Of a stretch of 64,000 nt of DNA, positions 23,627-35,749 are shown piece by piece. The DNA comes from Amycolatopsis nigrescens CSC17Ta-90 (GTDB lineage Bacteria; Actinomycetota; Actinomycetes; Mycobacteriales; Pseudonocardiaceae), in assembly GCF_000384315.1 (NCBI RefSeq), contig NZ_ARVW01000001.1:1931746-1995745 (forward strand). The letters run 5' to 3'. The notes below the pieces were generated by a model, which saw nothing but the letters and a program-made list of their open reading frames with translations, had not been told where the DNA came from and did no database searches. The position numbers and the translations under genes were made by a program. Every line of letters begins with the position of its first letter. Position 1 is the stretch's first letter.

Positions 23627-25618
23627 CTAGACGACGCCGGCCTCGATCAACTGTGGCCAGATCACGCTCTGGTCGACGACCTCGACGCCGAACTTCTCGG
23701 CCTTGGTGAGCTTGCTCGCCCCGACCTCGGCGCCGGTGATGAGCAGGTCGGTGCTCGCCGAGACCGAGGACGCGATGGTGGCGCCCGCCTTTTCGCACAA
23801 CCGCTGGAAGGTCGGGCGGGCGACCTTCTCCCCGGAGCGCGGATCGTTGATCGCGCCGGTGACCACCACCGTCTTGCCGGCCAGTGGCGCGCCGGCCGCG
23901 ACGACCGGCGGGAGGTCCTCCTCGCGCACATCCAGGGAGACCCCGCGCGCTCGCAGCCGCTCGAGTTCGGGCCGCAGCCGGGTGAGGTGCTCGATCAGCG
24001 AGGCGGCGACCTTCGGCCCGATGTCCTCCACCGCCACCAGCCCGTCGACCCCGGCTTCGGCGACCTCCTCCAGCGAGCCGAAACCCGCGCGGCACAGCCG
24101 GGCGGCGGTGCCCTCGGAGGCCATCGGGATCGCCAGCCCGATCAGCGCGCGGCGCAGCCCGACCTGGCGGCTGTTGTCGATCGACTCGATCATGCGCGCG
24201 GCCGAGACCTCGCCGATGCGGTCGAACTCCAGCAACTTCTCCTCGGTCAGCCGGTAGAAGTCCGAGGGGTGCTCCAATATGCCCGCCTCGGCCAGCCGTT
24301 CGATCCACACCCCGCCGATGGCCTCGATGTCCGCGGCCGCCCGCGACGCCCAGTGGATCAGCCGCCGCACCGTCTGGGCCGGGCAGGCGACGTTGGTGCA
24401 GAACAGTTCGCGGCTGTTGCCCTGCTCGGTCAACGGCTGCTCGCACGAAGGGCAGGTGGTGGGCGGCACGATCTCCCGCTCCGCGCCGGTGCGCTTCGAG
24501 GCGTCGAGCACGCCGGCCACGAACGGGATCACGTCGCCGGCCCGGCGCACCAGCACCGTGTCGCCGATCCTGATGCCGCGGGCGCGGATCACCTCCTGGT
24601 TGGCCAGCGTCGCGCGGGTGACCGTGGTCCCGCCCACGAACACCGGCTCCAGCCAGGCGACCGGGGCGATCTTGCCGGTCTTGCCGACGTCCCAGACCAC
24701 ATCGGCGAGCACCGTGGTCTTCTCCTCCGCGGCGAACTTGTACGCCAGGGCACCGCGGGGCGAACTGGAGCGGGTGCCGGCCGCGGCGTAGGCGTCCCGG
24801 TCGGCCAGCCGCAGCACGGCACCGTCCAGGTCGTAGTCCAGGTCGTTGCGCTGCCGCTCGATCTCCGCGATCACGGCCTGCGCCGCGGCCGCGTCCGCGC
24901 AGTGCCGCATGTCGGCGACGGTGAACCCGATCGTGCGCAGCGCGCGCTCCAGGTCGGTCTCCGCGCCTTCGGGGTCGATGTCCAGGTCGAAGGCGAAGAA
25001 CCGCAGGCGGCGACCGGCGACGGTGGCCGGGTCCTTGGCCCGCAGGGTGCCCGCGGCGGCGTTGCGCGGGTTGATCAGCGGCTTGTCCGGATGCTCGGTG
25101 TTGTAGGCGGCGAAGGTGGAGCGCAGCATGACCGCCTCGCCGCGCACCTCGACCCGGCCCGCCGCGCCGACCCGCTCCGGGATCCCGTCGGCAAGTACCC
25201 GCACCAGCATGGTCACGTCGTCGCCGGTCGTCCCGTCCCCGCGGGTGATCGCCCGCGCCAGCCGCCCGTCCTCGTAGACCAGTGCCAGCGACAGCCCGTC
25301 CAGCTTCGGCATCACCACCACCGGCTGGCCGGGAAAGCGCTCGAAGAACGCCTCCACCTGCTCGGGCCTGGTGGCTTTGTCCAGCGACAGCATCGGCCGC
25401 GAGTGCCGGATCGGCGCGTGCAGCACCGCGGGTGCACCCACCTGCTCCAGCGGGTTCGGGTCCGGTGCCAGCTCCGGGTTCGCCTCGATCAGGCCCCGCA
25501 GCTCGTCTTCGATCGCGTCGTACTCGGCGTCCGCCACCGTCGGCGAACCCCGGTAGTAGGCGTCGCGCAGCACTACGACCTGGTCAGCGAGTTCCTGGAT
25601 GCGCTCCCGTGCGTTCAC
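23627..25618 (-). CDS. ligA: NAD+-dependent DNA ligase LigA
   Basis: A 663-residue NAD+-dependent DNA ligase, sealing nicks in duplex DNA. Domains in order: Ia NMN-binding (LRDAYYRGSPTVADAEYDAI), adenylation domain with active Lys in VVMPKLDGLSLALVYEDG, OB fold, Cys4 zinc finger (CPSCEQPL...CTNVACPAQ), helix-hairpin-helix region (IEAIGGVWIERLAEAG, VEDIGPKVAASLIEHL) and a C-terminal BRCT domain starting LAGKTVVVTGA. The BRCT domain is slightly atypical (AINDPRSGEKVARP insertion). Whether this is the sole essential ligase or a paralogue cannot be judged here. Confidence 0.95.
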   Translation of the reverse strand: MNARERIQELADQVVVLRDAYYRGSPTVADAEYDAIEDELRGLIEANPELAPDPNPLEQVGAPAVLHAPIRHSRPMLSLDKATRPEQVEAFFERFPGQPVVVMPKLDGLSLALVYEDGRLARAITRGDGTTGDDVTMLVRVLADGIPERVGAAGRVEVRGEAVMLRSTFAAYNTEHPDKPLINPRNAAAGTLRAKDPATVAGRRLRFFAFDLDIDPEGAETDLERALRTIGFTVADMRHCADAAAAQAVIAEIERQRNDLDYDLDGAVLRLADRDAYAAAGTRSSSPRGALAYKFAAEEKTTVLADVVWDVGKTGKIAPVAWLEPVFVGGTTVTRATLANQEVIRARGIRIGDTVLVRRAGDVIPFVAGVLDASKRTGAEREIVPPTTCPSCEQPLTEQGNSRELFCTNVACPAQTVRRLIHWASRAAADIEAIGGVWIERLAEAGILEHPSDFYRLTEEKLLEFDRIGEVSAARMIESIDNSRQVGLRRALIGLAIPMASEGTAARLCRAGFGSLEEVAEAGVDGLVAVEDIGPKVAASLIEHLTRLRPELERLRARGVSLDVREEDLPPVVAAGAPLAGKTVVVTGAINDPRSGEKVARPTFQRLCEKAGATIASSVSASTDLLITGAEVGASKLTKAEKFGVEVVDQSVIWPQLIEAGVV

Positions 25619-25676: not shown

Positions 25677-25690
25677 TTACCGGCCGGTAA
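25677..25690. promoter_or_regulatory. Perfect 14-bp palindrome upstream of vanH
   Basis: TTACCGGCCGGTAA directly abuts the VanR-type repeats of the vanH promoter. The full palindrome is absent at the otherwise duplicated vanY promoter. The TTAC...GTAA form resembles TetR-family operators; the cognate regulator is unknown. Confidence 0.5.
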
Positions 25691-25755
25691 CATATCGTCG
25701 GCATATCGAAAACCGGATACGTGCTGGCAACACCGCACTCCCTTGACTGGGCGGC
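25691..25755 (+). promoter_or_regulatory. vanH promoter region with VanR-type direct repeats
   Basis: CATATCG occurs at 25691-25697 and again 11 bp later at 25702-25708, one helical turn apart on the same face, as OmpR-family regulators prefer. The 44 bp from 25691 match the vanY upstream region (31832 onward) at 41 positions. A weak GGGCGG precedes the ATG. Confidence 0.75.
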
Positions 25756-26799
25756 ATGACCTACCGCGAACCAGCACGAACGGCGGCCCGCCGCGCCCGA
25801 TCGCTGGCGCCATGGTCCTACTCGGCCGCCCCGGGAACGGGAATCACGATCTATGGATGCGGACCGGACGAGGCCGCCTTGTTCCGGGAGATGGCGCCTC
25901 GCTTCGGCGTCAGGCCGACCATCACGGAGGCAGCGGTATCCGAAGCCAATATCGAGCTGGCATCCGGAAATCGATGCATCAGCGTTGGTCATAAAACTCG
26001 GCTCACAGATAACATCCTTCTTGCCCTCGGCCAGGCAGGCGTAACGTATATCTCCACCAGAAGCATTGGCTACAACCACATCAATGTGGAGTACGCGGAA
26101 AGTATCGGCATCTCCGTCGAGAACGTCGCCTACTCACCCGACAGCGTGGCCGACTACACGCTGATGCTGATGTTGATGGCGGTGCGAAATGCCCGATCCA
26201 TTGTCAGGCGCGCGGCCGTTCACGACTACAGGCTGACCGACGCGCCGGGAAAAGAACTGCGCGACCTGACTGTCGGGATAGTTGGCACCGGGCGCATTGG
26301 CGCGGCGGTCATGGACCGGCTGCGGGGCTTCGGCTGCCGCATACTGGCCCATGACACCCGCCCCGAAGCCGCCGCCGACTATGTTAGCCTCGATGAATTG
26401 TTGCAGCGGAGCGATATTGTCACGCTGCACACGCCACTCAACGCCGACACCCATCACCTCTTGAACCGTCAACGTATCGAGAAGATGAAGCGCAGCGCGT
26501 ACATCGTCAATACCGGACGCGGTTCGCTCATCGACACCGAGGCCCTCGTGTCGGCACTGGAAAGCGGTGAACTGGGCGGCGCGGCGCTGGATGTACTCGA
26601 AGGAGAAGACGGAATATTCTACGCAGATTGCCGGAACAAACCCATCGAAAGCAGCCTGTTGCCGCGGTTGCAAGAACTGCCGAACGTGATCGTCAGCCCG
26701 CATACCGCCTATTACACGGACCACGCCCTGCGCGATGCTGTTGAAAACTCTATTGCCAACTGCCTGAACTTCGAAAGTAGAAAGCGGCACTGGATATGA
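25756..26799 (+). CDS. vanH: D-lactate dehydrogenase VanH
   Basis: A 347-residue 2-hydroxyacid dehydrogenase that reduces pyruvate to D-lactate for D-Ala-D-Lac synthesis. After about 28 unmatched residues, GITIYGCGPDEA begins the VanH core; ISTRSIGYNHIN, NAD-binding VGIVGTGRIGAAV, INTGRGS-like VNTGRGSLIDTE and the catalytic His in VSPHTAYYTDHALRD follow. The first residues (MTYREPARTAA) resemble the start of VanY (MTRSESVRTTA), and the upstream DNA is duplicated too, so this N-terminus looks borrowed. Codon usage is less G/C-biased than in flanking genes. The stop overlaps vanA by 4 bp. Confidence 0.95.
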   Translation: MTYREPARTAARRARSLAPWSYSAAPGTGITIYGCGPDEAALFREMAPRFGVRPTITEAAVSEANIELASGNRCISVGHKTRLTDNILLALGQAGVTYISTRSIGYNHINVEYAESIGISVENVAYSPDSVADYTLMLMLMAVRNARSIVRRAAVHDYRLTDAPGKELRDLTVGIVGTGRIGAAVMDRLRGFGCRILAHDTRPEAAADYVSLDELLQRSDIVTLHTPLNADTHHLLNRQRIEKMKRSAYIVNTGRGSLIDTEALVSALESGELGGAALDVLEGEDGIFYADCRNKPIESSLLPRLQELPNVIVSPHTAYYTDHALRDAVENSIANCLNFESRKRHWI

Positions 26800-27830
26800 A
26801 AATCGGAATTATATTCGGGGGCTGTTCCGAAGAACATCCCGTCTCCGTCAAGTCCGCACAAGAGGTCGCAAAGCACCTCGACCCCGACAAGTACGAGCCG
26901 TTCTGGATCGGGATTACGAAGAGCGGCGGCTGGCTGCTTTGCGACGGCCCTGACGGAGACTGGGAAAACGCCGCCGGTAGCCGTCCGGTCATGCTTTCGC
27001 CGGACCGGAACGTGCACGGATTGCTGGTCCTGGAGCAGGGACGATACGAAACGATCAGCCTGGACGTGGTGTTGCCCGTTCTGCACGGCAAGCTCGGCGA
27101 AGATGGTGCGACCCAAGGCTTGCTGGAGCACTCCGGCATCCCCTACGCGGGCTGCGACATCCAAAGTTCCGCCCTGTGCATGGACAAGTCCCTCGCTTAC
27201 CTCGTCGTCGCCAACGCGGGAATCGCTACGCCGAATTTCTGGACCGTCACGGCGAACGAGAACATCGATCCCGACCAGCTCACCTATCCCGTCTTCGTGA
27301 AGCCGGCCCGTTCGGGGTCGTCCTTCGGCGTCAGCAAGGTGTCTCGCAAAGAAGAACTGCTCGATGCGGTGGAGACCGCGAGGCAGTACGACTCGAAGGT
27401 GCTGATCGAAGAGGCCGTCGTCGGCAGCGAGGTCGGCTGCGCCATCCTGGGGAACGAGCTGGACCTGATCGCGGGCGAGGTGGATCAGATCTCGTTATCT
27501 CACGGGTTCTTCAAGATCCACCAGGAGAGCAACCCGGAAAGCGGTTCCGAAAACTCGACGATAACCGTTCCCGCGGACATTCCAGCAGAGACCCGATCGC
27601 TCGTCCAGGAGACGGCGAAGGTCATCTACCGCGCCTTGGGGTGCCGGGGGCTGGCGCGGGTGGACATGTTCCTGAAGGAGGACGGCACGGTGGCCCTCAA
27701 CGAGGTCAACACCTTTCCCGGCATGACCTCCTACAGCCGTTACCCGAGAATGATGACCGCCGCCGGCTTGCCGCCGGCCGAAGTGATCGACAGGATGGTG
27801 TCGTTGGCGTTGACCGGAAAATTCCAATGA
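26796..27830 (+). CDS. vanA: D-alanine--D-lactate ligase VanA
   Basis: A 344-residue ATP-grasp ligase joining D-Ala to D-Lac, giving peptidoglycan termini with low affinity for vancomycin. The N-terminal IIFGGCSEEHPVSVKSA, VLHGKLGEDGATQGLLE and FVKPARSGSSFGVSKV are family signatures. The omega loop GFFKIHQESNPE has His242, the equivalent of the VanA His that separates depsipeptide ligases from D-Ala-D-Ala ligases. LARVDMFLKEDGTVALNEVN holds the metal ligands. Starts in an ATGA overlap with vanH and ends in an ATGA overlap with vanX. Confidence 0.96.
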   Translation: MKIGIIFGGCSEEHPVSVKSAQEVAKHLDPDKYEPFWIGITKSGGWLLCDGPDGDWENAAGSRPVMLSPDRNVHGLLVLEQGRYETISLDVVLPVLHGKLGEDGATQGLLEHSGIPYAGCDIQSSALCMDKSLAYLVVANAGIATPNFWTVTANENIDPDQLTYPVFVKPARSGSSFGVSKVSRKEELLDAVETARQYDSKVLIEEAVVGSEVGCAILGNELDLIAGEVDQISLSHGFFKIHQESNPESGSENSTITVPADIPAETRSLVQETAKVIYRALGCRGLARVDMFLKEDGTVALNEVNTFPGMTSYSRYPRMMTAAGLPPAEVIDRMVSLALTGKFQ

Positions 27831-28453
27831 ACGACGATTTTGTCTTTGTCGACGAGCTGGTGCCCGGCATACGATGGGACGCCAAGTACGCCACCTGGGA
27901 CAACTTCACCGGCAAACCCGTGGACGGCTACTTGGTAAATCGAGTTGTCGGCACGAGGACGTTGTGCGCAGCACTGGAAGCAGCGCGAGAAAAAGCCGCG
28001 TCCCTCGGCTTCGGCTTGCTCCTTTGGGATGGTTATCGCCCCCAACGCGCCGTGGACAGCTTTCTGCGCTGGTCGAAACAGCCGGAGGACGGCCAGACGA
28101 AGCTACGGCACTACCCCAACATCGACCGAGCCGAGATGTTCGAAAAAGGATATGTGGCAGCAAAGTCGGGCCACAGCCGGGGCAGCACCGTTGACCTGAC
28201 GCTCTACCACTTGGCGACCGGCGAGCTCGCCCCCATGGGCGGCGACCACGACCTGATGGATCCGCTCTCACATCATGGCGCCAAGGGAATCACGCCAGTC
28301 GAAGCGAGTAACCGTCAGCACCTTAGCTACATCATGGAGGCCTGCGGTTTCAACCGGTACGACTGCGAGTGGTGGCATTACACGCTGAAAGACGAACCTT
28401 ATCCGGACACCTATTTCGATTTTCCCATCACGAAGGTACTAATACATGCCTGA
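27827..28453 (+). CDS. vanX: D-Ala-D-Ala dipeptidase VanX
   Basis: A 208-residue Zn2+ dipeptidase that hydrolyses D-Ala-D-Ala in the cytoplasm and so prevents its incorporation. All catalytic residues align by number with enterococcal VanX: Arg71 (LLWDGYRPQ), Zn ligands His116 and Asp123 (KSGHSRGSTVDLTLY), Glu181 and His184 (CEWWHYTLKDEPYP). There is no signal peptide, as expected. The last 8 bases (ATGCCTGA) are the start of the acetyltransferase gene. Confidence 0.96.
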   Translation: MNDDFVFVDELVPGIRWDAKYATWDNFTGKPVDGYLVNRVVGTRTLCAALEAAREKAASLGFGLLLWDGYRPQRAVDSFLRWSKQPEDGQTKLRHYPNIDRAEMFEKGYVAAKSGHSRGSTVDLTLYHLATGELAPMGGDHDLMDPLSHHGAKGITPVEASNRQHLSYIMEACGFNRYDCEWWHYTLKDEPYPDTYFDFPITKVLIHA

Positions 28454-28907
28454 GATCCGTCCGGTACGTGCGGCCGACGCCCCGCGCCTCACCGGACTGC
28501 TGGCCCAGCTCGGGTACCCGAGCGAACTCGACGCGGTGACCAGCCGGCTGGCGGGCGTGCTGAATTCGGCCACCCAGCAGGTGCTGGTCTCCGTTTCGGC
28601 CGACGGCTCCCGCATCGACGGCTACCTAGGTGTCGAGCGGCGATTTCTGCTGGAAGAGGACGAACGCGTCGAGATCACCGGCCTGGTGGTCGATTCGGCG
28701 GCCCGCCGGTCCGGCCTCGGCCGCACTCTGGTGCAGGCCGGCGAACAGTGGGCAGTACAGCAGGGCCTGCACACGGTCGTGGTTCGTTCGAATGTCGTGC
28801 GCCCCGAATCCCACGCGTTCTATGCGGGAATCGGGTACCAGCGGACGACGACCTCGCATACCTACCGCAAGGAGGTCCGGGGCGTGTCCGGACCGGGGCA
28901 GGCGTGA
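28446..28907 (+). CDS. GNAT family N-acetyltransferase in van operon
   Basis: A 153-residue GNAT protein: IRPVRAADAPRLTGLLAQLG at the start, ITGLVVDSAARRSGLGRTLV (acetyl-CoA-binding R-x-x-G-x-G) and a C-terminal SHAFYAGIGYQRTTTSHTYR. The acceptor is unknown. Translationally coupled on both sides (8-bp overlap with vanX, GTGA overlap with the murG paralogue), so it belongs to the resistance operon. It could modify a wall precursor, a glycopeptide amine or something unrelated; sequence does not decide. It is not a FemX/VanK-type aminoacyl transferase. Confidence 0.85.
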   Translation: MPEIRPVRAADAPRLTGLLAQLGYPSELDAVTSRLAGVLNSATQQVLVSVSADGSRIDGYLGVERRFLLEEDERVEITGLVVDSAARRSGLGRTLVQAGEQWAVQQGLHTVVVRSNVVRPESHAFYAGIGYQRTTTSHTYRKEVRGVSGPGQA

Positions 28908-30010
28908 CGGCACCGCGCGTCGTGGTCGCCGGCGGCCATTCGGCCGGGCACATCGAGCCCACGATGAACTTCGCCGACGCGCTGCGCCGGCTGGAGCCAA
29001 CCGCCGAGATCACCGCACTCGGCACCGTGCACGGCCTGGACACCACGCTCATCCCGGCCCGCGGCTACCCGCTCGAACTCGTCCCGCCGGTGCCGCTGCC
29101 GCGCGAACTGAACCGGGCCCTGCTGCAGACGCCGGGCAAGCTGCGCGACTCGGTGCTGGCGGCCGGGGCGGTGCTCGACCGCGTCCGGGCCGAGGTCGTG
29201 GTGGGCTTCGGCGGCTACGTGGCCGCGCCGGCCTACGTCGCCGCCCGCAGGCGTGGCCTGCCGATCGTCGTGCACGAGGCGAACGCCCGGCCCGGAGTGG
29301 CCAACCGGCTGGCGGCCCGGATGACCACGCACGTGTTCACCGCCTCGCCGGGTGTCCGGCTGGCGCACGCCACCGCCATCGGCATCCCGCTGCGGCCGGC
29401 GATCACCGGGCTCGACCGGCCCGCGCTGCGCGACGCCGCCCGGCAGCGGTTCGGCCTTCGATCCGACGGCCCAGTACTGATGGTGACCGGCGGTTCGCAG
29501 GGCGCCAAGGCGATCAACGCCGCGGTATCCGGCGCGGCCGCAGCGTTGCGGGCGGCCGGCGTGCAGGTACTGCACATCACCGGGCCGCAGCACGTGGTCG
29601 AGATGCCGGCCAGTAACCCCACCGACCCCGCCGACCCGCCCTACGTCGTCCTCCCCTACGTCGACGAGATGCAGTACGCCTACGCCGCGGCCGACTTCGC
29701 GATCTGCCGTTCGGGGGCGATGACGTGCGCCGAACTGGCCGCTGTCGGCCTGCCGGCCGCGTACGTCCCGCTGCCGCTGCGCGGCGGCGAGCAGCGGCTG
29801 AACGCCGAGCCGGTCGTCGCGGCCGGCGGGGCACTGCTCGTCGACAACGCCGGCCTCGACCCGGCCTGGATCGAGACCACCCTGATCCCGGTGCTCACCG
29901 ATCACGGGCGGATCGCGGCGATGTCGGCCCGCGCGTCGGCGGCCGGTGCCCTTGACGCGGACGTCGTCCTGGCTCGGCACGTGCTCACCGTGGTCGCCGA
30001 GCGACGCTGA
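28904..30010 (+). CDS. MurG-like UDP-GlcNAc transferase in van operon
   Basis: A 368-residue paralogue of MurG, which adds GlcNAc to lipid I to make lipid II on the inner membrane face. Start is GTG in a GTGA overlap. Actinobacterial MurG signatures are kept: VVVGFGGYVAAPAYVAARR, IVVHEANARPGVANRLAAR, VTGGSQGAKAINAAVSGAAA and ICRSGAMTCAELAAVGLPAA with GGEQRLNAEP. The first glycine loop reads GGHSAGHIEP instead of GGGTAGHIEP. A second MurG tuned for D-Lac-ended lipid I, or one expressed only under glycopeptide stress, are plausible roles. It ends 3 bp from the convergent vanS stop. Confidence 0.88.
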   Translation: MTAPRVVVAGGHSAGHIEPTMNFADALRRLEPTAEITALGTVHGLDTTLIPARGYPLELVPPVPLPRELNRALLQTPGKLRDSVLAAGAVLDRVRAEVVVGFGGYVAAPAYVAARRRGLPIVVHEANARPGVANRLAARMTTHVFTASPGVRLAHATAIGIPLRPAITGLDRPALRDAARQRFGLRSDGPVLMVTGGSQGAKAINAAVSGAAAALRAAGVQVLHITGPQHVVEMPASNPTDPADPPYVVLPYVDEMQYAYAAADFAICRSGAMTCAELAAVGLPAAYVPLPLRGGEQRLNAEPVVAAGGALLVDNAGLDPAWIETTLIPVLTDHGRIAAMSARASAAGALDADVVLARHVLTVVAERR

Positions 30011-30013
30011 TCG

Positions 30014-31147
30014 TCAGCCGCCGGGGTGCGGTGCCGCGGCGGGCAGTTGCACCGTGACGCGAAGTCCCCCGGCGGCCCGGCGGGTGAGGGAGAGGGTGCC
30101 GCCGTGTGCCTGGGTGATGCTCTTCACGATCGCCAGGCCGAGACCGACGCCCGCGTGGTGGTTCCGGATGCGGGTGGAGCCGCGCTGAAACGGCTCGGCA
30201 AGCGTGAAAACCAGCTGCGGCGTGAGCTTCTCGCCGGTGTTCTCGACAGAGAGCATGACGGACTCGGCGTGCACGGCGGTGCTCACCCAGACCGCCCCCT
30301 CCGCGGACAGGTTGTGCATGATCGCGTTGTGCACGAGGTTCGTGGTCAGCTGCAACAGGAGCGCTTGCGACCCGATGGTGGGGCTGATGTCGCCGGAGGT
30401 CTCGATGGTGACGCCGTGCTTTTCCGCGAGCGGGAGCAGTGTTTCGGTGGCTTCTTCCGCGATCAAGGACAGGTCGACCTGTTCTCGGCTGAAGGACCTT
30501 TGGTCGGCGCGGCTGAGCAGGAGCAATGCTTCGGTGAGGTCGATCGCCCTGGCGTTGACGGCGTGCAGGCGTTCGACGAGTTCGCCGGGGTTCCGGTTCG
30601 GATCGTTGCGGGCGACGTCGAGCAGGGTCTGCGAGATCGCCAGCGGGGTGCGCAGCTCGTGCGAGGCGTTGGCGGCGAACCTCCGCTGTTCGGCGACGTG
30701 TGCTTCGAGCCGGGCGAGCATCGTGTCGAAGGCGTCGGCGAGTTCGCGGAACTCGTCCTTGCGGCCTTCCAACTGGATCCGGTGGGAGAGCGATCCGTTC
30801 GCGGCCAGGCGGGTGGCATTGGTGAGGCGGGTCAGCGGCGCGAGCATGCTGCCGGCGAGGATCCAGCCGCCCAGCAGGCCGAAGATCAGCAGGACGGCCA
30901 GCACCGCGGCCACCTTCGGGCCGAAGGCGGCCAGCAGGTCGGAGCGGTCGGGTACGAACATCGGACCGGGCGCCCCTGGCGCATCGAGCGAGTCGCGCCG
31001 CGGGGTGACGATCACCTCGGGTACGTAACGCAGCAGGAACACCCACACCGTCGCGAGCAGCAGGGCGCCCGTGACCATGAGGAACCCCGCGTAGCTGAGG
31101 GTGAGTTTGAGGCGAACGCTCAGGCCAGGTGCCCTAGCCACGTTCAT
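30014..31147 (-). CDS. vanS: Sensor histidine kinase VanS
   Basis: A 377-residue membrane sensor kinase. Two membrane helices (about 17-40 and 78-100) flank a short extracytoplasmic loop of about 37 residues; a HAMP region follows (LAPLTRLTNATRLAANGSLS). The phospho-His is His163 in FAANASHELRTPLAISQ; N box NLVHNAIMHN; G2 box GVGLGLAIVK. The short sensor loop resembles actinomycete VanS proteins that detect glycopeptides. The start overlaps the vanR end by 14 bp. The kinase should phosphorylate VanR, controlling vanHAX and vanY. Confidence 0.88.
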   Translation of the reverse strand: MNVARAPGLSVRLKLTLSYAGFLMVTGALLLATVWVFLLRYVPEVIVTPRRDSLDAPGAPGPMFVPDRSDLLAAFGPKVAAVLAVLLIFGLLGGWILAGSMLAPLTRLTNATRLAANGSLSHRIQLEGRKDEFRELADAFDTMLARLEAHVAEQRRFAANASHELRTPLAISQTLLDVARNDPNRNPGELVERLHAVNARAIDLTEALLLLSRADQRSFSREQVDLSLIAEEATETLLPLAEKHGVTIETSGDISPTIGSQALLLQLTTNLVHNAIMHNLSAEGAVWVSTAVHAESVMLSVENTGEKLTPQLVFTLAEPFQRGSTRIRNHHAGVGLGLAIVKSITQAHGGTLSLTRRAAGGLRVTVQLPAAAPHPGG

Positions 31148-31808
31148 CGCCAGGGTCGATGCGGTACCCGACGCCGGGCACCGTGGCGATCACCCAGGGT
31201 TCGCCGAGCCGTTTGCGCAGTGCCGAGACCGTGATGCGCACGGCGTTGGTGAAGGGGTCCGCGTTCTCGTCCCAGGCCCGCTCCAGCAGGTCTTCGGCGC
31301 TGACGACACCGCCGTCGGCGGCGATCAGGACTTCGAGCACGGCGAACTGCTTCCTGGTCAGCGCGACATAGCGGCCGTCCCGGTAGACCTCGCGGCGGAA
31401 CGGATCCAGCCGCAGGCCGGCGATCTCCCGCACCGGCGGCCGGTTGTGCGCGCGCCTGCGGTCGAGTGCTCTGAGCCTGAGCACGAGCTCTTGCAGCTCG
31501 AACGGCTTGGTGAGGTAGTCGTCCGCGCCGAGCCCGAACCCGGTGGCCTTGTCGTCTAGCCGGTCGGCGGCGGTCAGCATCAGGATCGGCATGCCGCTGC
31601 CGGAGGCGACGATGCTTTCGGCGATCTCGTCACCGGAGGGCCCGGGAATGTCGCGGTCGAGGACGGCGATGGCGTAGGCGTTGATGCTCAGCAGCTCCAG
31701 AGCGGTGTCGCCGTCACCGGCGATGTCGGCCGCGATCGCTTCCAGCCGCAACCCATCGCGAATGGCCTCTGCCATGTAGGGCTCGTCCTCGACGATCAGC
31801 ACACGCAT
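31134..31808 (-). CDS. vanR: OmpR-family response regulator VanR
   Basis: A 224-residue response regulator: receiver MRVLIVEDEPYMAEAIRDGL, phospho-acceptor Asp51 in AIAVLDRDIPGPSG, Lys in DDYLTKPFELQELV, and a winged-helix DNA-binding domain (YVALTRKQFAVLEVLIAADG, NAVRITVSALRKRLGEP). The ATG at 31808 was chosen because the frame upstream is the divergent promoter shared with vanY. Expected to bind the 11-bp-spaced repeats ahead of vanH and vanY. Confidence 0.9.
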   Translation of the reverse strand: MRVLIVEDEPYMAEAIRDGLRLEAIAADIAGDGDTALELLSINAYAIAVLDRDIPGPSGDEIAESIVASGSGMPILMLTAADRLDDKATGFGLGADDYLTKPFELQELVLRLRALDRRRAHNRPPVREIAGLRLDPFRREVYRDGRYVALTRKQFAVLEVLIAADGGVVSAEDLLERAWDENADPFTNAVRITVSALRKRLGEPWVIATVPGVGYRIDPGDERG

Positions 31809-31824
31809 GCTCCCGATGCTACGA

Positions 31825-31895
31825 GCCGGTGCATATCGTCGGCATACCGGAAACCGGATACGTGCTGACAACACCACCTTGCCTTGGCTGGAGGC
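31825..31895. promoter_or_regulatory. Divergent vanR/vanY promoter, copy of the vanH promoter
   Basis: CATATCG (31832-31838) and CATACCG (31843-31849) are spaced 11 bp apart exactly as upstream of vanH, and the surrounding sequence is near-identical to 25691-25734. TGGAGG provides a ribosome-binding site for vanY. The same sites lie about 25-40 bp from the vanR start and may autoregulate vanRS. Confidence 0.75.
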
Positions 31896-32411
31896 ATGAC
31901 CCGCAGTGAATCAGTACGAACAACAGCCCTGAATCGCATCCGGCAACGTGGTGCGCTTGGCGAAGCCGATGGCGCCGTCCCTGCCGGGGTGAAGGTCTTC
32001 GATGACGGGATTCCGGCCGTGGCCAATCTTGATCCGGCTCTTCTCGGTGCCCTGCGTCAGGCCGCGACCGATGCCGCGGCCGACGGGGTCGAGTTCTTCG
32101 TCAATAGCGGCTGGCGTTCCCCGGAATATCAGCATCAGATTCGGCGCAAAGCGGTTTCCAAGTACGGATCCGAAGAGGAGGCCGCCCGGTGGGTGGCCAC
32201 CGCGGAAACGTCCGCGCACGTGCTGGGGGACGCGGTCGACATCGGATCCTCCGATGCCACGGCGTGGCTGTCGGAGCATGGCGCCAGGTACGGACTGTGC
32301 CAGATCTACCGCAACGAGCCATGGCACTACGAACTGCGCCCCGAGGCGATCGAGCATGGCTGCCCGCCCATGTATCCCGACCCCACGCACGATCCGAGAA
32401 TGTGGCGTTGA
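31896..32411 (+). CDS. vanY: D,D-carboxypeptidase VanY, without signal peptide
   Basis: A 171-residue M15B metallopeptidase removing the terminal D-Ala from pentapeptide precursors. Motifs: Arg74 in FFVNSGWRSPEYQHQIR, Zn ligands His108 and Asp115 in SAHVLGDAVDIG, and Glu141/His144 in EPWHYELRPE. No signal peptide or membrane helix is seen, unlike classical extracellular VanY; a cytoplasmic VanXY-like role or unusual export is possible. The upstream promoter duplicates that of vanH. Preceded by GGAGG. Confidence 0.88.
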   Translation: MTRSESVRTTALNRIRQRGALGEADGAVPAGVKVFDDGIPAVANLDPALLGALRQAATDAAADGVEFFVNSGWRSPEYQHQIRRKAVSKYGSEEEAARWVATAETSAHVLGDAVDIGSSDATAWLSEHGARYGLCQIYRNEPWHYELRPEAIEHGCPPMYPDPTHDPRMWR

Positions 32412-32466: not shown

Positions 32467-32952
32467 TCAGCTCGTCATGGCGTCGAACATGCCCGCCTCG
32501 TAGGAACCCGCCGGGTTGCGCACGATCACGTTGAGCCGGTTGGCCGCGTTGATCAGGGCGACCTGGGAGACCAGCGCCGCGATCTGGTCGTCGTCGTAGT
32601 GCTTGCGCACCTGGGCCCAGGTCTCGTCGGACACTCCCTTGTGGTGATCGGCCAGCCGGGTGCCCTCCTCGGCCAGTGCCAGCGCGGCCCGCTCGGCCTC
32701 GGTGAACACGATGGCCTCGCGCCAGGTGGCGACCAGGTTGAGCCGGACCGCGGTCTCACCGGCGGCCGCGGCGTCCTTGGTGTGCATGTCGGTGCAGAAA
32801 CCGCAGCCGTTGATCTGGCTGGCGCGCAGCGACACCAGCTCCTGGGTGGACTTCGGCAGTGTCGACTGGGCGATCACCATGCTGGTGTTGGCGAACCGCC
32901 TGCCGAACTTGGCCGCGAGCTCGTTCTCGAACAGGTTGAATCGGGCTTCCAT
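32467..32952 (-). CDS. Carboxymuconolactone decarboxylase/AhpD-like protein
   Basis: A 161-residue CMD-family protein with the AhpD-type redox motif C50-G-F-C53 followed by His57 (INGCGFCTDMHTKDA). Members act as alkyl-hydroperoxidases or oxidoreductases. ATG 32952 has AGTGAGGAC upstream. CMD genes are the standard partners of ECF41 sigma factors; the divergent neighbour is such a sigma gene and an ECF41-type promoter reads toward this gene. Confidence 0.88.
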   Translation of the reverse strand: MEARFNLFENELAAKFGRRFANTSMVIAQSTLPKSTQELVSLRASQINGCGFCTDMHTKDAAAAGETAVRLNLVATWREAIVFTEAERAALALAEEGTRLADHHKGVSDETWAQVRKHYDDDQIAALVSQVALINAANRLNVIVRNPAGSYEAGMFDAMTS

Positions 32953-33130: not shown

Positions 33131-34030
33131 ATGGCCGGCCAGGACGACCGCCCGGACGCCGCCACCGAGGCGTTCCTCACCCACCGCAACCTGCTGTTCA
33201 CGGTCGCGTACGAAATGCTCGGCTCGGCCGCCGACGCGGAGGACGTCCTCCAGGAGACCTGGCTGCGGTGGTCGGGCGTTGACCTCGGCACCGTGCAGAA
33301 CCAGCGGGCCTACCTGGTCCGGATCACCACCCGCCAGGCGCTCGGCCGGCTGCGCACGCTCGGCCGCCGCAAGGAGTCCTACGTCGGCCCGTGGCTGCCC
33401 GAACCACTGCTCACCGCGCCCGACGTGGCCGAGGACGTCGAGCTGGCGGACAGCGTCTCGATGGCGGTGATGCTGGTGCTGGAGACGCTTCAGCCGACCG
33501 AGCGGGCGGTGTTCGTCCTGCGCGAGGTCTTCGCGCTCGGCTACGACGAGATCGCCGAAGCGGTCGGCAAGAGCACGGCCGCGGTCCGCCAGATCGCGCA
33601 CCGCGCGCGCGAGCACGTCGCGGCACGCCGGCCGCGCGGGATCGTGTCCGCGGCCGAAACCCGGGACGCGCTCCAGGCGTTCCAGCGGGCTGTCGAAACG
33701 GGCGACCTGCAGCACCTGCTCGACATCCTCGCACCGGAGGTCGTGATGATGGGTGACGGCGGCGGAGTCGTGCAGGCCATCCCGAAACCCGTGGTGGGAG
33801 CCGACCGGGTCGCCCGCGTGCTGGCCACCGGGATGGCCACCCTCGTCGCCACCCGGTCACTGCACCCGGCAGAGGTCAACGGCTACCCGGCACTGATCTT
33901 CCGGCTGGACGGCGAGGTCGACACGGTCATGGCGGTGCGCCTCGACGACGGCCTCATCACCGGGCTCTACGCCGTGCGCAATCCCGAGAAGCTGTCGCGC
34001 ATGGAGCGGGAAACCGCCCTGCGCCGCTGA
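33131..34030 (+). CDS. ECF41-type (SigJ-like) sigma factor
   Basis: A 299-residue ECF sigma factor with a fused SnoaL-like C-terminal domain. Region 2: YEMLGSAADAEDVLQETWLR; region 4: VFALGYDEIAEAVGKSTAAV; the ECF41 signature linker VGPWLPEPLL is present, and the C-terminus has GDLQHLLDILAPEVVMMGDG and RNPEKL. The start ATG has GGGGAGCC upstream. It is divergent from the CMD gene, and both have ECF41-type promoters. The 3' end overlaps the opposing sigma gene by 74 bp. Confidence 0.9.
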   Translation: MAGQDDRPDAATEAFLTHRNLLFTVAYEMLGSAADAEDVLQETWLRWSGVDLGTVQNQRAYLVRITTRQALGRLRTLGRRKESYVGPWLPEPLLTAPDVAEDVELADSVSMAVMLVLETLQPTERAVFVLREVFALGYDEIAEAVGKSTAAVRQIAHRAREHVAARRPRGIVSAAETRDALQAFQRAVETGDLQHLLDILAPEVVMMGDGGGVVQAIPKPVVGADRVARVLATGMATLVATRSLHPAEVNGYPALIFRLDGEVDTVMAVRLDDGLITGLYAVRNPEKLSRMERETALRR

Positions 34031-34904
34031 GTTCGAGGCGTCCGACGAGCGCAGGGTCACCGAAGACGGTCACCCCGGCGATGCCGTCCCGGCGAACGTC
34101 GAGCACCGCGATGCCGAACGGTTCCCCGTGCAGGTACGCGGCGACGCCGGGCTGGCCGTTGACGGTCACGCGGTCCATCCGCCAGTCGCCAGGGTGACCT
34201 ACCGATGCGGCGAATACCCGGGAACAGGCGGCCATGCCCGCGACCCACGCTCGGTTCGGCAGCAGCTCCAGCGTGGCATCCGCACGGAGCGCGGTGGTCA
34301 GGGCATTGACGTCCGCCGTCTCGAACGCGGTCACGTACGCGTCGAGCAACCGCCGCGCCTGCGGGGAGCTGGGCTCGACCACGTCGTCGAGGCCGAAGTC
34401 GACGTCGGCCAGCTTGGCACGGGCACGTTGCAGGCTGCTCTTCACCGCGGCGACGGACATTTCCAGCATCTCGGCGACCTCGGCGGCCGGGAACGCCAGC
34501 ACGTCGCGCAGCAGCAGCACGGCCCGTTGGACGGGCGGCAGCGTCTGCATCGCGGCGATCAACGCCAGCCGCAGGTCGGCGCGGTCGCCGGGGAACGGCT
34601 CGAGCCACGTCTCCGGGGGCAGCACGTCCGGTTGACCGGCCAGGTCGTCGGTGGGTGCGCCGATACCCGATGGCAGGGCGCGCCGGCCGCGGTCCCGGGT
34701 GGCGTTGAGGCACACGTTCGTCGCGATGCGGTGCAGCCACGTCCGGACCGAAGACCGTTCTTCGAAGCCGTCCCAGGCGCGCCAGCCACGCAGGTAGGTC
34801 TCCTGGACCGCGTCCTCGGCCTCATGCCACGACCCGAGCATCCGATAGCTGTGCGCCAGCAGCTCGCCGCGCAGCGGGCCAGCCACCCGCTCGAAATCCG
34901 TCAC
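33957..34904 (-). CDS. ECF sigma factor, SigG-like with SnoaL-like domain
   Basis: A 315-residue sigma-70 family protein of the SigG-like type: YRMLGSWHEAEDAVQETYLR (region 2), VLAFPAAEVAEMLEMSVAAV (region 4) and an SnoaL-like extension (DAYVTAFETADVNALTTALR). GTG 34904 is preferred because it overlaps the esterase stop as GTGA and gives the usual VTDFERVAGPLRGELLAHSY start; GTG 34928 is the alternative. Last gene of a five-gene operon. The end overlaps the converging ECF41 gene. Confidence 0.85.
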   Translation of the reverse strand: MTDFERVAGPLRGELLAHSYRMLGSWHEAEDAVQETYLRGWRAWDGFEERSSVRTWLHRIATNVCLNATRDRGRRALPSGIGAPTDDLAGQPDVLPPETWLEPFPGDRADLRLALIAAMQTLPPVQRAVLLLRDVLAFPAAEVAEMLEMSVAAVKSSLQRARAKLADVDFGLDDVVEPSSPQARRLLDAYVTAFETADVNALTTALRADATLELLPNRAWVAGMAACSRVFAASVGHPGDWRMDRVTVNGQPGVAAYLHGEPFGIAVLDVRRDGIAGVTVFGDPALVGRLELSGAGRFPAPCATASRDCARRRAR

Positions 34905-35749
34905 CGGACCAGTGTCGACCGCAGCCACGATCCCGCCTCCCTGATCGCGTCATCGGCCACGGTCGTGCGACCGGCCGCCATCTGGAACGTGTGGACCTGG
35001 TCCGGGAATTCGTCGAGACGGACCTCGACGCCGGCGGCCCGCATCCGCTGCGCCAGCCGCCTGCTGTCGTCCAGCAGCGCCTCCTGGGCACCGACCTGAA
35101 AATAGGTCGGCGGCAGTCCCCGCGGATCGGCATCCGTCGGCGCCGCCAGCGGGTCATGCGGGTCCGCCCCGGCCAGGTAGCCGGCCGCCAGCCCGCGGAC
35201 CAGCTCCCGGCTGAAGAACGGGTCGCTGCCCGTGTCGTAGGAGGTACCGTCGGCGTCGAGATCGGTCCATGCCGAGAGCAGCAGCAACGACACCGGCATC
35301 GGCAGATCTTCCTCCCTGGCACGTACCGCGAGGCCGAGCGCCAGCATCGCGCCGCAGGAGTCGCCGGCCACGCCGATCGGACCGGCTCCGCTGCCGAGCA
35401 GCCACCGGTAGGCCGCCGTCACGGTGTCGAGCTGACTGGGGAACACGTGCTCGGGCACGAGTCCGTATTCGACGGCGAACGTGCTCACTCCGGCAGCTCG
35501 TGCCAGGTGGCCGAACATCCGGCGATGAGTGGTCGCCGATCCGCTCACGAAGCCGCCTCCGTGGATCGCCAGTATCACCGGCCCGGCCGCGGCAGCCGGC
35601 GGACGCAGCCACAGGCCGGCCGGCGCGTCCACCGCCTCGACGTCAACGCCGTCCGGCTCGGTGGCCAGTGTCTCCCAGGCTGGGCCCTGCTCACCGCGTG
35701 CCTGCGCCTCCCACAGCTCGCGGTTGGGGTCCCTTGTCGTTCTGATCAT
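34901..35749 (-). CDS. Alpha/beta hydrolase, HSL-type esterase
   Basis: A 282-residue hormone-sensitive-lipase-type esterase. The oxyanion motif is VILAIHGGGFVSGSA, the nucleophile Ser lies in VAGDSCGAMLALG, and Asp/His in RLDEFPDQVHTFQM. No signal peptide. It lies 37 bp downstream of the LLM oxidoreductase gene and is coupled to the sigma gene. Substrate unknown; the operon context (epoxide hydrolase, LLM enzyme) suggests catabolism or detoxification. Confidence 0.87.
   Translation of the reverse strand: MIRTTRDPNRELWEAQARGEQGPAWETLATEPDGVDVEAVDAPAGLWLRPPAAAAGPVILAIHGGGFVSGSATTHRRMFGHLARAAGVSTFAVEYGLVPEHVFPSQLDTVTAAYRWLLGSGAGPIGVAGDSCGAMLALGLAVRAREEDLPMPVSLLLLSAWTDLDADGTSYDTGSDPFFSRELVRGLAAGYLAGADPHDPLAAPTDADPRGLPPTYFQVGAQEALLDDSRRLAQRMRAAGVEVRLDEFPDQVHTFQMAAGRTTVADDAIREAGSWLRSTLVR

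Follow-up and report, generated by a model that had tools for sequence, protein, structure and literature searches.

The window analyzed here is a 64,000-nucleotide stretch of the soil actinomycete Amycolatopsis nigrescens CSC17Ta-90 (NZ_ARVW01000001.1, positions 1,931,746 to 1,995,745), whose genome is a single 9.11 Mb contig. It carries a glycopeptide-resistance (van) locus in which two additional genes, encoding a GNAT acetyltransferase and a paralogue of MurG, stand behind vanX. Within positions 25691-32411, vanH-vanA-vanX-GNAT-murG lie on the forward strand and face vanS-vanR on the reverse strand, and vanY, on the forward strand, is divergent from vanR. The genes and control elements are as follows:

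25691..25750, + strand: first copy of the control element, ahead of vanH; CATATCG-type repeats in tandem, probably the VanR site and promoter
25756..26799, + strand: vanH, D-lactate dehydrogenase; Pfam 2-Hacid_dh, NCBIfam vanH_gen 554.5 bits (cut-off 540)
26796..27830, + strand: vanA-type D-Ala-D-Lac ligase; NCBIfam D_ala_D_lac 607.2 (cut-off 550), HGFFKIHQE motif
27827..28453, + strand: vanX, D,D-dipeptidase; NCBIfam dipept_VanX 409.7 (cut-off 320), SGHSRGSTVD and EWWH motifs
28446..28907, + strand: GNAT acetyltransferase, lineage A; Pfam Acetyltransf_1 (1.6e-10), GNAT fold matches
28904..30010, + strand: van-type paralogue of murG, starting at GTG; both Glyco_transf_28 domains of Pfam (N and C), alignment to 1f0k
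30014..31147, - strand: vanS, sensor kinase, pointing towards the operon; domains HAMP, HisKA and HATPase, best NCBIfam model VanS-O, below cut-off
31134..31811, - strand: vanR, response regulator; Response_reg and Trans_reg_C, best NCBIfam model VanR-O, below cut-off
31832..31891, + strand: control element copy 2, in the vanR-vanY gap; identified by its likeness to copy 1
31884..32411, + strand: vanY, D,D-carboxypeptidase; Pfam VanY (2.7e-13), SAHVLGDAVD motif, likely true start at ATG 31896

All eight annotated genes were found where an initial annotation, made from the sequence alone, had placed them, with the expected Pfam domains, and the layout that it described holds; its "seven core van functions" come down to six named van genes (H, A, X, S, R and Y). 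Successive genes of the five-gene run overlap by 4 or 8 bases, with 8 nt shared by vanX and the GNAT gene (GNAT ATG at 28446, vanX stop at 28451-28453) and 4 nt (GTGA) shared by the GNAT gene and murG, which starts at 28904. These overlaps are in line with the proposed translational coupling of the two genes behind vanX. For vanY, the ATG at 31896 is more likely to be the start than the TTG at 31884, since it lies 40 bp past the element core and the vanH ATG lies 41 bp past its own copy. The G+C content is 59-62% for vanHAX in the window and 75% for murG (family medians 65-67% and 75%), a contrast that fits modular assembly of the operon, although selection on codon use could equally produce it.

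vanH, the D-Ala-D-Lac ligase gene and vanX are contiguous and intact, each scoring above the generic NCBIfam cut-off, and a linked VanS-VanR pair is present, as expected of a vanHAX operon. VanS-O and VanR-O are the closest models for this pair, but the vanO-type cut-offs were not reached by VanS (509.7, cut-off 720), VanR (453, cut-off 505) or the ligase (591.7, cut-off 750). VanY matched Pfam VanY, with a best NCBIfam score of only 63.3 for a cut-off of 250. Motifs that we take to hold the catalytic residues were matched in VanH, VanA, VanX, VanY and VanR, and a pattern search recovered the SHELR phosphorylation site in VanS. To this extent the catalytic residues are correct, as initially claimed; for the N box of VanS the search pattern gave no match, NLVHNA being nonetheless readable in the sequence.

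The 60-bp control elements before vanH and before vanY are alike at 52 of 60 bases. The 24-bp element core occurs at two sites in the 9.1 Mb genome when up to 3 mismatches are allowed (none for the reversed control pattern), and its two occurrences within the window compare with none in 100 shuffles. Because the core was found genome-wide only before vanH and vanY, VanR most likely controls the GNAT gene and murG as part of its regulon, presumably binding at both elements. Co-regulation of the five-gene run is likely, as vanH and vanY share this control element. By eye, the likeness of the two regions seemingly extends into the first codons of both genes (25756 and 31896; MTYREPART versus MTRSESVRT), as if their whole start region had been duplicated.

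In our view, the window probably encodes an inducible D-Ala-D-Lac locus in which vanHAX-GNAT-murG form one coupled message and MurG and the GNAT serve as helpers. VanS would sense the glycopeptide, or its effect, and phosphorylate VanR, which would act at the two near-identical control elements, one driving vanHAX-GNAT-murG as a single translationally coupled message and the other driving vanY. VanH, VanA and VanX would rebuild the precursors to D-Ala-D-Lac ends and VanY would trim the remainder. While remade precursors flow, the dedicated MurG would supply the conversion of lipid I to lipid II, and the GNAT would acetylate a small cytoplasmic amine linked to the precursor pool. Sensing, VanR binding and precursor chemistry are carried over here from established van biology, and we only infer the contributions of MurG and the GNAT and the kind of substrate used by the latter. 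On this reading, both would be helpers that act in the cytoplasm and are optional, MurG as a dedicated lipid II synthase and the GNAT as an acetyltransferase; a simple hydropathy scan gave no membrane-like segment in either protein.

We then set the locus against its relatives in the family, where 157 of 390 genomes were VanX-positive at E <= 1e-30. Among the matches listed, 147 loci with a nearly full-length VanX were taken (two each in G216 and G218), giving 148 with the window; the census excluded one further copy (G245:C34), one match that was only partial (G235) and any matches not listed. Loci were scored by hidden Markov models built from these genes, a gene being counted as intact above 75% of the profile. 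An intact GNAT was found in 25 of the 148 loci (8 of lineage A, 16 of lineage B and 1 of lineage D), an intact van-MurG in 41 and both in 12. Their co-occurrence is slightly above expectation (odds ratio 3.0, Fisher p = 0.025), a weak signal since the loci are related. The full layout, vanHAX-GNAT-murG facing vanSR with vanY, is present in 11 loci, the window and 10 of the 147 others, 4 of them with a lineage A GNAT (including the window) and 7 with a lineage B GNAT. The control regions of vanH and vanY could be compared in 82 loci, those having both regions and a vanR-vanY gap below 400 bp (66 loci failed these conditions). Their likeness exceeded the best of the locus's own 8 dinucleotide shuffles in 77 of the 82, and the score was at least 50 in 51 of 82 loci versus 0 of 82 shuffle maxima.

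Outside the family, 394 genomes of the class gave 21 VanX-positives at E <= 1e-60, the window's own genome and one family member included, and one locus was inspected for each of the 19 remaining genomes. A lineage B GNAT lies behind vanX in 2 of these 19 loci (L281 and L291); intact MurG is present in 4 (L280, L284, L288 and L291) and MurG remnants in L281 and L289. Kribbella pratensis (L241) likewise has a lineage B GNAT behind vanX. In a Chloroflexota metagenome-assembled genome of the Thermomicrobiales (L234, 377-8056), vanSR, vanA, vanX, a GNAT fragment, murG and a displaced vanH were found; either the van unit crossed phyla or the bin is mixed.

The window MurG is a full-length paralogue that falls short of the TIGR01133 equivalog cut-off (230.1 versus 250.25). 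The genome has another murG at 9.06 Mb, with a score of 274.6; the two proteins share 55% identity. Aligned to E. coli MurG (1f0k) over residues 5-362, the window protein keeps the GT28 fold and active site, including the loop histidine, GGY, HE-N, GGSQGA and the glutamate after the SGA motif, which we take to be catalytic or binding residues. The initial reading stands as to the operon, its polarity and, through MurG, the link with lipid II. We then built a tree of 55 rows, 41 van-MurGs (40 census loci and L234, with L117 left out for coverage under 90%) and 14 housekeeping MurGs from 14 chosen family genomes, MurGs of other phyla being left out; the van-MurGs formed one clade, split from the 14 housekeeping copies by a branch with 100/100 support in a bootstrap that was not fully settled. 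At 28 diagnostic positions, one of them a gap, the two groups differ in state, each state being shared by 90% or more of the rows in its group. The first glycine-rich loop reads GGHSAGH in van-MurG versus GGGTAGH, with H12 in 41 of 41 van-MurGs and G in 14 of 14 housekeeping copies, and the fixed van-MurG changes sit beside the catalytic loop.

Such a signature speaks against van-MurG being a dosage copy that raises lipid II output with unaltered specificity, as does its descent in one clade instead of repeated duplications of the host copy. Nevertheless, the key MurG residues are conserved and, as described in the accessible part of PMC4235313, E. coli MurG converted a depsi-lipid I (D-Lac) analogue to the depsi-lipid II analogue in vitro. 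We consider a dosage copy possible, though on the doubtful side; it is a sub-case of the helper reading, with which it shares part of its probability. Separately, an apparent VanX-MurG fusion in L191 and L201 was dropped, as a stop codon closes the vanX frame in both loci (VanX of 201 and 202 residues). Four loci (L118, L131, L139 and L159) show, some 4.5 kb past vanX and on the other strand, an incomplete match to MurG (51-55% identity) that runs off the fetched stretch.

The GNAT of the window belongs to its superfamily by its Pfam GNAT domain and its acetyl-CoA loop R-x-x-G-x-G. A structure model built from 8 sequences (predicted local distance difference test score, pLDDT, 83.4) gave Foldseek matches to generic GNATs including AAC(6')-Ih, GNA1 and ArsN, and this predicted fold with its matches appears to point to no particular substrate. 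The presence of aminoglycoside acetyltransferases (AACs) among the many fold and sequence matches could suggest that the GNAT inactivates the glycopeptide itself by N-acetylation. We regard this as most unlikely, since no export signal was detected in the GNAT by hydropathy, whereas glycopeptides act outside the membrane, and since the best curated model among the AAC models listed reached only 33.8 bits, far under the AAC(6') cut-off of 140.

In a GNAT tree of 79 rows, drawn with a midpoint root and with several long branches flagged, lineage A forms a fork of 9 rows (support 97/87) that includes the L234 fragment, and lineages B and C form with Kribbella a fork of 17 rows (100/100). The two forks are separated by GNATs whose fetched surroundings yielded no van gene, and the GNAT of L084 pairs with one such non-van GNAT (N_L032, 100/99) and not with lineage B. 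Because the GNATs of van operons split into three lineages, the simplest reading is that of at least three separate captures into the slot behind vanX; a single ancient van GNAT with later relocations is a less simple, conceivable alternative. Members of lineage A share 64-79% identity with the window GNAT and have retained open frames; in five pairs the changes fall mostly at third codon positions. Outside van loci, lineage A has its nearest relatives in Proteobacteria (up to 51% in a contig scan with two peptide patterns), and non-van GNATs of its own family reach at most 44% to lineage A among the matches listed (9 candidates scored per genome). An attempt to derive the function from the non-van relatives (Luteimonas, Lysobacter, Vulcaniibacterium and others, up to 51%) was abandoned, their neighbours giving no cell-wall link: the gene preceding the GNAT is hemB in L221, L223 and L224 and encodes a CsaA-like protein in L228. 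For L073, the one lineage B member scanned, and for L084, the best model was an aminoalkylphosphonate acetyltransferase (53 bits each, cut-off 142), a match too weak to name their function.

The repeated arrival of GNATs amounts to a testable prediction of a missing resistance step. In its strongest form, acetylation of a cytoplasmic precursor or D-amino-acid compound by the GNAT would be that extra step, at least three captures having occurred because D-Ala-D-Ala re-use is blocked or remade precursors are marked, and van-MurG would have evolved to prefer remade lipid I. This elaborate version is, in our estimation, distinctly improbable.

Several observations weigh against the helper reading. 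No intact GNAT was found in 123 of the 148 loci (3 with remnants) and no intact van-MurG in 107 (2 with remnants), these counts being upper bounds since L108, L110, L117 and L143 reach contig ends soon after vanX; as most loci have no intact copies, neither gene appears to be required for a van locus. At second codon positions the GNAT changes more than VanX in the same pairs, and so looks less constrained. A special MurG would not be chemically required, because the E. coli enzyme accepts a D-Lac lipid I analogue. The vanH-vanY likeness did not exceed shuffles in 5 of the 82 loci compared (L140, L156, a tie, L165, L168 and L187), and L140 carries the full window layout; the duplicated control region is common in window-type layouts but not universal. 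Finally, no membrane or signal segment was detected by hydropathy in the window VanY (31896-32411; best 19-residue mean 0.88), which is odd for a carboxypeptidase expected outside the membrane, and VanY may act in the cytoplasm.

The scarcity of both genes and the variable second codon positions would also fit passengers of a hot slot between vanX and vanS, co-transcribed without a role in resistance, as would the remnants of GNAT (L070, L078, L091 and the L234 fragment) and of murG (L096 and L115 in the family, L281 and L289 outside it). The two genes are gained and lost independently, with several copies decaying. However, the lineage A frames stay open with mostly third-position change, the van-MurGs group in one clade that is marked by 28 near-fixed positions, and separate GNAT lineages arrived in the same slot, which makes mere passengers rather unlikely. 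We retain GNAT and MurG as optional helpers. If they contribute, resistance would involve a larger part of the lipid II pathway than is covered by VanHAX. The vanHAX clusters of actinobacteria are considered a reservoir of clinical glycopeptide resistance. Even with neutral helpers, the duplicated element would define a compact candidate VanR regulon.

Around the locus, the gene for the NAD-dependent DNA ligase LigA (23627-25618) lies just before vanH on the opposite strand, a carboxymuconolactone-decarboxylase-like gene stands at 32467, and two sigma-70-type, extracytoplasmic-function-like genes overlap tail to tail (33131-34030, + strand; 33957-34928, - strand). These flanking genes were found in none of the 147 other loci within the stretches fetched (about 1.4 kb before vanH and at least 1 kb after vanY, less at contig ends), and the upstream aminotransferase of the window had one 30% match, in L120, which hints that van loci occupy different chromosomal sites. 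Two StrR-like genes lie elsewhere in the genome (52%, and 49% over part). Five selected frames in all, scanned from the regions of roughly 40 kb around the two genes, included none of glycopeptide kind, the rest of the genome and of the window not being scanned; they gave polyketide, FabA-like, sulfate-activation and chorismate domains, and one had no match. At about 7.70 Mb (L301), a 1932-residue ketosynthase-acyltransferase-ketoreductase frame adjoins the FabA-like frame and an adenylylsulfate (APS) kinase gene, and this region looks like a polyketide cluster.

Related arrangements are in print, and the initial impression that the layout is not a standard van type has to be tempered. According to the accessible part of PMC8698665, murG and orf2 follow vanHAX in Pseudonocardiales and other orders, GNATs are "often found co-localized", murG comes directly after vanHAX in a few species, and how MurG contributes is stated as unknown. 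In the accessible part of PMC9689679, van loci of Paenibacillus are followed by MurG, and a GNAT is reported for Ktedonobacteria. Among the titles and abstract openings listed, no experimental test of a van-linked GNAT or murG was found. The Pseudonocardiales vanHAX loci with murG, orf2 or GNAT have the same gene kinds as the window and come from the same bacterial order, whereas the GNAT lineages, the duplicated control element and the comparison of van-MurG with housekeeping MurG are not described in the accessible part of PMC8698665. Overall, the window layout belongs to a known, variable family of van operons, and what deserves following up is the capture of GNATs, the sequence signature of van-MurG and the duplication of the control element.

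Among defined types, vanO comes closest in its sensor pair, the window VanS and VanR matching VanS-O and VanR-O best, and vanSR presumably faces vanHOX there as well. In the vanO operon of Rhodococcus equi S7B, vanHAX is likewise followed by an extra gene and a murG-like gene, but the gene after vanX is an "orf2" of unknown function where the window has a GNAT (PMC8698665, accessible part). The window also differs in that its ligase, VanS and VanR stay under the VanO-type cut-offs, and no vanO-type orf2 was found between vanX and murG, the ORF2 profile being negative in the window. Within the census, ORF2 is a third optional gene behind vanX, present in 10 of the 148 loci (L070, L081, L082, L085, L115, L122, L123, L129, L169 and L215). 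It gave no Pfam match in the 3 members scanned and a weak structure model (pLDDT 50.2); plasmid homologues among the matches listed, mostly at 34-39% identity, are often annotated as C39 family peptidase. This gene is probably the vanO orf2.

The van cluster of Streptomyces coelicolor, whose order we take to be vanSRJKHAX, offers a second comparison. Neither vanJ nor vanK is among the eight annotated genes of the window locus, the rest of the genome not having been searched for either. The two are alike in pairing an inducible D-Ala-D-Lac system with a cell-wall enzyme relative dedicated to it, which in S. coelicolor is the Fem-family protein VanK (PMC8698665, accessible part). The difference lies in the step concerned, as VanK adds branch amino acids, whereas the window has MurG and a GNAT instead.

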